Source: Macrocystis pyrifera
Taxonomy: Eukaryota; Sar; Phaeophyceae; Laminariales; Laminariaceae
Assembly (NCBI GenBank): GCA_031763025.1
Contig: JASSKH010000010.1
Coordinates: forward strand, 12,789,427 to 12,853,426
DNA: 64,000 nucleotides
Reading direction: 5' to 3'
In this document: positions 3,715-61,921 of the stretch, one piece after another
Layout: each line of letters opens with the position of its first letter
Position numbering within the stretch: position 1 is the first letter of the stretch
The notes under the pieces: model-generated
The model's input: the letters and a program-made list of their open reading frames with translations, nothing else
Told to the model about the DNA's origin: nothing
Databases searched by the model: none
Program-made: the position numbers and the translations under genes

Positions 3715-3896
3715 CCCACTCGCAGGAGGTTTTACCCTCGACGATCTTCTGGACAAGCCGTGGTCACAGGTGTCGTCCCTTCTCCCCCCCGGTACGTGCC
3801 TTTAGTTTTTATCGCGCATAGGGTTCAGCATTCCCACTGCTCGTCGATTTTCATCGAATGTACAGCTAACTCACGCTCTCGCGCTTTCCGCTAATC
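3715..3896. repeat. Dispersed repeat, inverted copy at 36763-36940
   Basis: The segment from TTTTACCCTCGACGATC through GTGGTCACAGGTGTCGTCC to CTCACGCTCTCGCGCTTTCC reappears in reverse orientation near 36763-36940. A more diverged copy is at about 2756-2840. No coding capacity seen. Confidence 0.75.
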
Positions 3897-4904: not shown

Positions 4905-5012
4905 GAAGTCATGTCGTGCACGGCCGTAGTCGTATGACCATAGACCCTCGCATCCCTACAATGCCGGGATGGAGCACGTCGGGTTTTCATCGACACAGAC
5001 ATACATTGCTTG
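4905..5012 (-). mobile_element. CATGCATGGCCG element, 3' fragment
   Basis: Contains the family core from GGCCGTAGTCGTATGACC through CATCCCTACAATGCCGGG to CGGGTTTTCATCGAC. Unlike most copies it has no G run at its left end. Confidence 0.8.
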
Positions 5013-5379: not shown

Positions 5380-5940
5380 AGGTTGGGTTGGTGACGGTTG
5401 GCAACCGCACTGTAAAACATGCCGCTCTACGTACGTGAGCTAGACAACCAGGGGTACCGTTTTTTTTTTTGTGTGGCCGGTTGGTCGTAGCTGGCGATCG
5501 AGATACAGATCATTTGTGCGGGGTGGAGAACATTTACTCCGCACAAGGGGAATGGTCGTACGACGTAGTGTGTATACGGTAAGGCATCCACAAGGCAGTC
5601 ACAAGTACTCCCACTGCTGTCTCTGGACGTAGCCAACCCGGAAAATACAGTAATTCAATGAAGCTGTCATCCATAAGAAAATCCGCTTCTAAAGCAGTTC
5701 TTAGTAGGAGGCAGCTCACCCATCATGCGACTCAACGAACACCTCACTACGGCGCTACGCGCTTGGTGCAAGCAATGTCTGCCTGGTCGGTGAAAACCCG
5801 ACGTGCTCCGTCCCGGCATCGTAGGGATGCGCGTGTCTATTGGTCATACGACTACGGCCACGCATGATATCGACCACACACCCCTACCTCCCTATCCCTG
5901 TCTAACCCCTTCTCCCCCCCTACACCCATAAAGTCGTTCG
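5380..5940 (+). mobile_element. CATGCATGGCCG element, near full length with C-rich tail
   Basis: Starts GGTTGGGTTGG, passes a T run, GTGCGGGG and CTCCGCACAAGGG, CATTGCTGTCTCTGG-like sequence and TGCAAGCAATGTCTGCC, and ends TACGGCCACGCATGATATCG followed by a C-rich tract. No open frame is conserved between copies. Confidence 0.85.
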
Positions 5941-6327
5941 ACGCCGTCATCCATGAACAACAAACGTAATCGATACGATTTCGACAGTCGATACCTTGAA
6001 GCCTTCGTTCAGTATCAGCACAACAAAACACGGGGATGCCAGGGAATTGGAGGGCGAAACACGCTCGAAATCATACATTGAAATCGAAAGTGGGATATCG
6101 TCTCCGTCGATGCGGATAATATTTGATATCTTGCAGTACCGTACGCGTAGTACCAGATATAAATTAACTAATTATTCGCATCTCGATAGATCGATTCGAT
6201 ACTATATATATCGAAAGTTCAATATGTCGACACATCGATTCGATATTGTGCACATCAAGAGCTCGATATATTACGACAAATACAAACTATCCACATGATA
6301 TCCATTACCAAAACGCACAAGAGCTAA

Positions 6328-44587
<38,260 letters not shown>

Positions 44588-44814
44588 ATTTTCCCGTTCC
44601 TCCTGTGTTTTGCGTCACGTAGTGTGTGTGTAGGCAGGAGGAGAAGAGCCGAGAGAGTGTGAAATGGGCGGCTGCGAGTCAGTCGTTCGTTGAGAAGAGG
44701 CGCCCTGTTTCTTGTGTTACGTCAGTGTGTAGCCGGTATCCGGTTCGCGGATGGATGCTGTGTGAGCGCGCCGGTAACAGTGTCTGCGTCTCTTTTTCTG
44801 CGCTTCTGAGGCGT

Positions 44815-45300
44815 CGATGGGGGTTGGGGATGGGGGTGGGAACGGGGGTTAGGATTAGGGTGGACGTGGGGGGGGGGGGGGGGGGGTCGGGGTGGGGTGG
44901 GAGTTAGGAAATGAGGGGTGGGCGGTGGGGCTGGGGGTAGGGATGGGTGTGAGGGTAGGCGTTTGGGTGGAGGTACGGGTGGGGATTGGGGTCGGGGCTA
45001 GGGGCACGGGTCGAGGGGTGGGGGCTAGGGTGGGGGTTGGGTTCGGGTGGGAGTTGAGGTGGGGAGTTAGAGGCTGGGGGGGGGGGGGGGGGGGGGGGGG
45101 CTTGGGAGCGGGAGTAGGTTAGGGATTAAGGGATTGAGAGTAGGGGTTGGAGTGAAAGTGAGAGTAGGGGTGGAGGTGGAATTTAGGGGTGGAGGTTGAG
45201 GTGGGGGTAGTGTTTGGGGTAGGTGTGGCGGTGGCGGGGGTTGGGTGGGGGTGGTCGAGGGGTGGGGGTGGTGTTCACGGTGGGGACTGGGGGTGGGGGA
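44815..45300. repeat. G-rich GGGGTTNGG degenerate repeat
   Basis: GGGGGTTAGGATTAGGGTGG-type words, almost all G on the plus strand, with a 24-base G run at 45077-45100. G-quadruplex potential is evident. Confidence 0.75.
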
Positions 45301-45927
45301 ACCGCCAGTAGCTATGAGCTGAGAGGGGAAACGAGAGATGTTCGGCGCGGCCAGGCGGGCGGGCATTGCGTGCGAAAAAAAAAACAGGAGCGTTGGCGTT
45401 GGCGTCCGCAAAGCCGTCGATCTGCACTGCACCTGCTGCAGCTGGATCGATATACTTGCGCCCACCTACAAAATCGATCTGTTACCATCATTGGAGGACC
45501 CGGAGTTCTCCGGCGGCGAAGTGGTAAAATACAATAAATACGCTATCGCGGCAGTCTGCTGCCACGTCGTGGGCATTGCCCCCACCGTTGCTCGTCAACA
45601 GGGGGCCGAGAGTGACGGAAGTGTGGATACTGCTTACGGGGAATCCAACACAGCTTGTCCGTCAAGTTCGATCTCCTTGTCGTGTCCGTCGTCCAAATTC
45701 AAATTTCAACTATTAATATTAAATACGAGCACAGCAGTATGTAAAACAATCATGTACTGCCTGTAGTACTTCTGTTACATACCTGGTATTCTGTTATTCA
45801 TTTTTACATACCGCTCGCTGGCCCTTGCTGTCCCTACATATCGTGCTGAGTACTCTACCGCAATACTCAATACCAGGCACAATGCAGCAGTACGTAACTC
45901 AGTAGTCGTGCCACTGATACTGCTGCA

Positions 45928-45933
45928 GCTACT

Positions 45934-45981
<48 letters not shown>

Positions 45982-45982
45982 A
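45928..45982. repeat. CTG microsatellite
   Basis: About 17 CTG units. Confidence 0.95.
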
Positions 45983-46256
45983 CCAGAACTGCTGAATGAA
46001 GAGAGCGCATGGTCTGCAAAGGCCAAGATAGAGCCCAGGATGGGGATCAAGATCGCAACATAAAATGGCGACGCTGCATCCAATATCCAATACGTGGGAG
46101 TGAAGCGACAGCAGCCGAACGTGTCGCATCGCGAGAGTGTGCAACAGGCTCAAAGCGCGGGAGTTCAAAGCTGCCACCCTGTGCGATATCAATATTCGCC
46201 ACAGGTGTCTCTTTGCATTGCAGATATGCCATAGTCAGTCTACAGTAGTACAGCAA

Positions 46257-46263
46257 AGAAAGC

Positions 46264-46314
<51 letters not shown>

Positions 46315-46316
46315 CG
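46257..46316. repeat. CAG microsatellite facing the CTG run
   Basis: About 17 CAG units, 275 bases from the CTG run and its reverse complement. Confidence 0.95.
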
Positions 46317-47013
46317 CAGCAGCTGCTGCATGCTAAATTCTCACGCAAGATCACAACGAACATGATCTCGTGATATCGTGGATCGTGGGCCGCATTCTGG
46401 GATTTCAACATTCTATGTGTCATCCGTGATCAGGTGGGCAGCTACGAGTAGAGCCGGAGAAGAGACTGACTACGCGCACTTGGCAGCAACTCCTAGGCAA
46501 TGAAATCAATCATAACCCTACCAAAAAATCAGTGCAACACCCTATCCCATGTCAAGTACCTGGTTTTGTCTCTGGTGTAGGTCTCCGTTGTCTGTATCGA
46601 GCGCGCAACAGCAGCAGAAAACATCGACCCAAAATCGCGGTTCGGGGAGTTTACATGGCGTCGCAGGCGGTAATAGAGTAGGGGACATACCTCTCAGCTG
46701 TCGTGCTGTTGCGCCGCCAGAACCCACACCAACACAAGAGGAAGAAGGAAGCCCTACTGTCCGTTGGTCTCGGTGGTTTGGTTCTTAACTGCGGCCGACG
46801 ATTTGTAGACTCCTACAGTTGCCCTGACGCAATCCTGGCCGCTTAGGGAGATCGCAGTGGAAACCGCGACCCCCGTAAACCTCACGGCATATATACGACT
46901 ACCTTGTCTCGAAAAAGGTAGAAAGTAAAAAGTAACTTCAAACAAGAGGGAGAAAGTCCGACTTTCTCTGTCAAGAGATATCCGAGTTCGAGCCCGAGCC
47001 ATCGCACGCAATC

Positions 47014-61921
<14,908 letters not shown>

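Follow-up and report, generated by a model that had tools for sequence, protein, structure and literature searches.

The most abundant family of Ectocarpus, RTEX-N1_Ec32, is a non-autonomous element of ~600 bp with more than 6000 copies, and the accessible portion of its description gives it a 3′ end in common with autonomous RTE-X LINEs and a 5′ part of unknown origin, and treats it as a possible SINE (PMC12477816). The RTE-clade LINEs of Lepidoptera, as portrayed in the available text, have a very short 3′ UTR right after the stop codon, with simple repeats, and are represented by many 5′-truncated copies, their insertion sites appearing not to be sequence-specific (PMC2887409). Non-LTR elements that target microsatellites are known in other clades, the example given in the available excerpt being Togen, for (TG)n, which groups with clades encoding a restriction-like endonuclease (PMC4640811). 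For zebrafish ZfL2, the accessible part of the account takes a 3′ stem-loop as the recognition signal of the LINE protein (PMC4176376).

Searches of open-licence papers showed no LINE or SINE that targets poly(C), nor one that is specific for any pure homopolymer apart from poly(A)/poly(T). In LINE-1 and Alu, the poly(A) tail pairs with T's, and the homopolymer at which reverse transcription is primed is also where the target duplication begins; for LINE-1 this pairing takes place at a TTTT/AA target. A 3′ stem-loop in common is a mark of stringent LINE/SINE pairs, such as that of eel UnaL2. The elements analysed here are very probably a SINE/LINE pair that primes at poly(C)/poly(G), in which the short family A is a SINE-like, LINE-dependent retroposon and the C runs beside its copies are mainly pre-existing targets. 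The SINE/LINE kind as such is already known, from Ectocarpus RTEX-N1.

The core CATGCATGGCCGTAGTCG, reported by the sequence-only reading in at least a dozen copies, was matched 14 times with up to three mismatches in the window (the whole 64,000-nucleotide stretch of Macrocystis pyrifera DNA analysed), compared with a mean of 0.05 in 100 shuffles. Genome-wide (537 Mb), 18,903 + 18,655 = 37,558 matches with up to two mismatches were obtained, and the reversed control gave 28 + 22 = 50. This core marks the 3′ end of A, a non-coding retroposon of ~492 bp when read with the C's last. The 492 bp consensus runs from GGTTGGGTTGGCG to CGACTACGGCCATGCATG-ATATCGAGTAC, with variants in which the 3′ end is ATAATGAGTAC or is tandemly repeated (GATCGAGTACATCTCTCCTATCGAGTAC), and it has no coding capacity, its longest stop-to-stop frame being 75 aa, in agreement with the non-coding element of ~500 bp described earlier. 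In kind, A is like RTEX-N1_Ec32, that is, non-autonomous with a LINE-type 3′ end, a likeness of description, whereas the accessible portion of the Ectocarpus account includes neither a C tract nor a poly(C) target, and the 37,558 core matches of A come from a larger genome (PMC12477816).

Individual copies were analysed in the window and in 20 fetched stretches (259 kb), a non-random sample chosen around core matches in unplaced contigs. The duplicate stretches L011, L013, L016, L019, L020 and L024 were excluded from the counts; L021 was kept despite at least one insertion in common with L012, so that up to two counted copies may be repeats. Long near-identical stretches were observed between unplaced contigs in four groups (L009/L016/L019/L020, L012/L013/L021, L015/L024 and L010/L011), which represent either segmental duplicates or haplotigs.

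When the ends of A were compared, the 3′ end (consensus position 480 or beyond) was kept in 49 of 50 copies and the 5′ end (start at position 7 or before) in 13 of 50, with starts scattered along the whole length of the element (five of the 55 pieces were left out of this count), as the earlier proposal of retroposition with 5′ truncation would have it. A is short, non-coding, high-copy and dispersed, keeps its 3′ end under variable 5′ truncation and has that end in common with a LINE, and by these features it is very probably a LINE-dependent non-autonomous retroposon. Seven of the 50 copies, L015:5293, L018:5397, L025:4932 and L012:6874 among them, began at consensus positions 452-453, which yields minimal insertions of ~41 bp starting within the 3′ stem-loop; is this cluster a preferred stop of reverse transcription?

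The opposite end, GGTTGGGTTGGCG, had been taken as sharp in full copies; in most of these it is not, since GGTTGGG is usually reached through ~10-40 bp of TA-rich leader, often with C's before the leader. In full-length A (e.g. window position 5381 and L027:723), this leader was variable and TATTATATATATATTATATATG-like, with the C run on one side of it and GGTTGGG on the other. A tRNA origin of the 5′ part was considered because the first ~70 nt can be drawn by eye as a cloverleaf-like fold, and ARAGORN found no tRNA in the A consensus on either strand. A 5S-like look of GACTACGGCCAT was likewise set aside, an Rfam scan of the window having given no match to it and no ancestry for A at the gathering cut-off; a permissive Rfam scan of 1 kb returned only four sub-threshold matches, all to unrelated families.

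The C tract lies on the ATCGAGTAC side of A in both orientations, just as had been noticed. The presence of C runs was then scored in the flanks of 47 copies, eight of the 55 pieces being left out. A run of at least six C's was found within 60 bp past the 3′ end in 39 of the 47 (background 4.6%), 32 had such a run in the 40 bp that precede the 5′ junction (background 3.3%), and 27 copies were flanked on both sides, so the tract is not one-sided, contrary to what had been thought. Removal of L021 left these values at 38/45, 31/45 and 26/45, respectively. The 5′ run accompanied seven of 12 full-length and 25 of 35 truncated copies, and G runs of five or more were seen beside none of the 47, on either side. 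The earlier statement that nearly every copy has a C tract proved too strong, as eight of the 47 copies had no run of six C's in the 60 bp after their 3′ end; in the 40-bp 5′ flank 15 of the 47 had none, and some of the copies without a run may have decayed or been inserted elsewhere. Genome-wide, the exact end GGCCATGCATGATATCGAGTAC occurred 1,588 times and was directly followed by NCCCC in 822 cases (52%; chance ~0.4%). The copies without a run and the exact ends without directly adjoining NCCCC count against C runs as the general target.

In the window, A copies were located by blastn to the A consensus, and 11 of 13 had at least six C's in the 60-bp 3′ flank. The 5′-truncated copies flanked by C runs at either end were 6633..6677 (−; consensus 446-490; C10 at the 5′ side, C8 at the 3′ side), 26088..26228 (−; 352-492; CCCCGC common to both sides), 38086..38183 (−; 398-492) and 42704..42732 (−; 29 bp). 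The full-length copy 42181..42680 (−) sits in the C tract of the last of these. At 12776..12970 (−; truncated, 297-490), 42880..43065 (+; truncated, 302-482) and 56624..57060 (+; 36-492), the 5′ junction had no C run and the 3′ side had C14, C23 and, after a repeated GAGTAC end, C7, respectively; a C7 also lay at the 3′ side of the truncated copy 41432..41503 (+; 411-482). Upstream runs were seen at the 33-bp truncated copy 26846..26878 (−; 459-492), preceded by C22GC, at the full-length copy 5381..5873 (+; 1-488), where C7 stands before the TA-rich leader, and at the full-length copy 58644..59154 (+), with C7 before it and a second GAGTAC end plus a C13 tract at 59167..59186 (+). The copy at 4911..5012 (−; 385-485) had C11 upstream of its 5′ junction and no C tract at its 3′ end, and the fragment 11159..11445 (+; 189-467) had a diverged 3′ end. 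The full-length copy 33134..33731 (−) was split at ~33301-33402 by a nested inverted-repeat element.

The association was also evident when it was approached from the homopolymers. In 204 kb, 63 of the 116 C/G runs of ten or more adjoined the end of an A or B copy with the strand matching, and none did so with the strand reversed (32 at the 3′ end, 28 at the 5′ end and three at both), and the other 53 had no A or B within 60 bp. With a threshold of eight, 76 of 169 runs were beside A or B on the matching strand and one on the opposite. Homopolymers of 20 or more in the same 204 kb comprised 44 of C/G versus 11 of A/T, ~4 times as many, though the G+C content of the window is ~45-61%; the longest C/G run in the fetched DNA was 218.

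The state of the target before insertion could be compared for two independent insertions, the empty sites being in paralogous host repeats ~75-93% alike, and not alleles. The occupied site at L027:723-231 reads CTTGCAA-C5TC5-leader-A-C10-TCTGCCC, and its two empty paralogues read CTTGCAA-C7-TCTACCC. The occupied site at L018:5397-5357 reads CTTCT-C11T-A-C9TC7-GTACTTG, with three empty paralogues reading CTTCT-C7 and a fourth CTTCT-C6; one of the four is in the window near 3787, as the unoccupied host-repeat C7 run at 3783..3791 (+). A third empty site was sought for L026:5514, and of its loci ten were occupied (flank halves 461-481 bp apart), one had the right half only and none was empty. 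Since the empty paralogues already hold C6-7, the C run predates the insertion, and it is longer on both sides afterwards. At both recovered sites the target sequence thus appears, from these paralogues, to have been in place before the insertion, which is a criterion for target-specific non-LTR elements. The sequence-only reading had regarded the tract as a poly(C) tail belonging to the element, and had named as evidence to the contrary empty sites already holding the tract; both recovered sites are of that kind, with C7 in two copies and C6-7 in four, and the 5′ side is flanked as well. Together, the C6-7 of the empty paralogues and the 5′ C runs indicate that most of the tract is not a poly(C) tail but a target that was there beforehand, of which the insertion left a copy at either side and which then grew longer.

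Candidate target duplications were also compared. At L014:5296, CCCCCCTGCAG was found on both sides of the element and starts with the C run, and at L026:3263 the two sides read CCCCTGTGTGGGTCTCGC and CCCTGTCTGGGTCTCGC, a likeness noted by eye that was scored low by the script. Among 37 truncated A copies, nine had no run of at least four C's in the 5′ 40 bp, five had the run abutting the element and one had no 3′ run, which left 22; at least two matching bases beyond the C run were found in nine of these, compared with 4.7 when permuted (28 of 2000 permutations were as good), some of the matches being C-rich and weak. The C run thus seems to be where the duplicated stretch starts. The pattern would then resemble that of LINE-1 and Alu, with the difference that here the homopolymers are C runs and there is no proven tail.

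The search for a LINE with a matching 3′ end, suggested earlier, led to family B, which codes for a reverse transcriptase and resembles A in its stem-loop and terminal GAGTAC. The 3′ end of B reads GGCAAGCAACAAATGAGTAC-G-Cn, and its longer copies encode a LINE reverse transcriptase (RVT_1, PF00078, E 1.3e-18; LINE-1 ORF2p, E 1.8e-8). The stop codon of the B frame is the TGA of AAATGAGTAC, in the arrangement AAA-TGA-GTACG-Cn, so that the stop lies 4-5 nt before the C tract and the 3′ UTR is very short, with GTAC or GTACG after the TGA and then the C tract, a trait of RTE and RTE-X. B is like the Lepidoptera RTE elements in its short 3′ UTR, simple repeat and 5′ truncation, and differs from them, as they appear in the available text, in that a pre-existing C run is the site (PMC2887409).

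Nine LINE copies (L036-L044) were fetched, in eight of which the 5′ junction was fixed by alignment to a longer copy; L041, the longest, was excluded from the junction count since its 5′ end had been guessed from the translation, and it shows C6TC4 where the LINE-like translation begins. The eight copies were cut at differing points, and at least six C's were found within 20 bp before the cut in seven of them (background 1.8%), the eighth (L040) having C7 within 30 bp of the junction. After GAGTAC, C's followed in all nine, with a run of at least seven in eight and C5GC5 in L038. When all B pieces including these longer copies were considered (n = 19), at least six C's lay upstream in 11 and downstream in 16. 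None of the nine copies extends to the N-terminal endonuclease region, and the C-terminal 432-aa frame of L037 had no Pfam family match. That frame and the homopolymeric target set A and B apart from Togen, which they resemble in inserting into a simple repeat, as far as the available excerpt describes it (PMC4640811). L029, found in the first search for a reverse transcriptase, ends in an AC repeat without a C tract and was taken as another LINE; tblastn with its reverse transcriptase detected a remnant of a different LINE in the window at 18171-19484 (−).

The last ~50 nt of A (37 copies) and B (12 copies) have in common a three-tier stem-loop with the tip UGGUC-NNNN-GACUA, followed by the GAGTAC end. 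In A, none of the 14 pairs was kept in fewer than 30 of the 36 or 37 cells scored. For B, where the stem-loop falls within coding sequence and the pairs were counted after a manual shift of its register, the five tip pairs were kept in 8 to 11 of 12 copies, and the outer pairs 18-62 (0/11), 22-58 (0/4) and 25-56 (2/12) were mostly absent. The stem-loops fold only a little better than shuffled sequences (z −0.9 and −1.4). As in ZfL2 and UnaL2, a SINE and a LINE have a 3′ stem-loop in common, but it is a different stem-loop and its role in recognition would be by analogy. B forms the 3′ end of a LINE, which is likely to mobilise A.

How such a pair would insert can be proposed from these features. 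A LINE-encoded endonuclease would nick the G-rich strand at a C run, and the 3′-OH of the G run would serve as primer for copying the A or LINE RNA from its 3′ end, just past GAGTAC plus A or G. One or a few C's at the end of the RNA might pair with the G run in this step. Reverse transcription would often halt early, and once the second strand is joined a C run would stand at either side of the insert, in some cases together with a few of the bases that follow it. Both runs could then lengthen by slippage and become further targets.

The A RNA itself may bear a short oligo(C), given that occupied sites have longer tracts than empty ones. A sub-case of priming at poly(C) makes use of this: the RNA would end in a few C's copied from the flank of its source and pair with the nicked G run, the tract being part tail and part target. 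Growth of the tract at the 3′ side and duplications starting with the C run, as in the geometry of LINE-1, fit this version, but the 5′ side grows too, and C/G homopolymers are generally long in the sample (44 vs. 11), so that slippage alone could suffice; we regard it as possible, though somewhat doubtful.

It is improbable that the C's are a genuine 3′ tail, whether templated or added to the RNA, and that the element inserts anywhere as poly(A) retroposons do. Such a tail would account for the 3′ C tract of most copies, for the conserved GAGTAC(A/G) immediately before the C's, for a 3′ tract longer than the empty site (C10 and C9TC7 vs. C6-7) and for the 15 of 47 copies without a 5′ run. However, 32 of 47 A copies also have the run ahead of their 5′ junction, and the eight LINE copies that could be judged have it near theirs, the two recovered empty sites already hold it, and the 5′ tracts were lengthened as well (C11 and C5TC5). 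A caution follows, that a tract adjoining a retroposon may be its target instead of its tail. Less probable still is that the tracts arose after insertion, by expansion or by assembly error at GC-rich ends, and were not targets; their lengths do vary greatly (up to 218), but element-free sites hold C6-7, no A or B lies within 60 bp of 53 of the 116 C/G runs of ten or more, and at either side of the elements the strand of the runs matches. A DNA transposon or Helitron-type element targeting poly(C) would explain the C runs on both sides but can be practically dismissed in view of the one-sided truncation at many points, the 3′ end in common with a reverse-transcriptase element and the A consensus, in which no terminal inverted repeat was noticed on inspection.

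Under target-primed insertion at poly(C), the use of lengthened C runs as targets would produce chains of A and LINE copies in the same orientation with C tracts between them. All 19 pairs of A and B neighbours up to 120 bp apart shared their orientation, and none was opposed (a split copy was removed from the 20 listed). As read from the list, the gap held a run of at least five C's in 18 of the 19, which would follow if each copy inserted into the tract of its neighbour. At distances of 1-6 kb, neighbours were in the same orientation in 14 cases and in the opposite in five, which means that orientation in the sample is somewhat biased anyway. Two such chains are present in the window, where truncated B copies stand head-to-tail behind full-length A: one at 59196..59261 (+) behind A 58644-59154, followed by G and C26, and one at 42012..42073 (−) behind A 42181-42680.

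A further proposal, which we put forward tentatively and at a little under an even chance, is that homopolymeric C is a self-propagating landing site for this LINE/SINE pair: the RNA would end at or in C and prime on a G run, one short run would be turned into two longer ones, and the pair would breed its own targets. If true, self-propagating C targets would build same-orientation chains and explain much of the long poly(C) found here. Specificity for poly(C) as such, if it holds, would help to explain why long C/G homopolymers are so abundant, and with its tens of thousands of copies the pair would be a simple system in which to study target choice by a LINE endonuclease and by the 3′ end of the RNA.

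Two minor features of the window were also recorded. The small element at 33301-33402, inside an A copy, has the inverted ends TATTACGGGGGACC...GACCCCCGTAATA, and similar pieces are present elsewhere in the window and in L029. The polyproline stop-to-stop frames at 30873-32309 (−), 57068-57844 (−) and others are mere C/G tracts.
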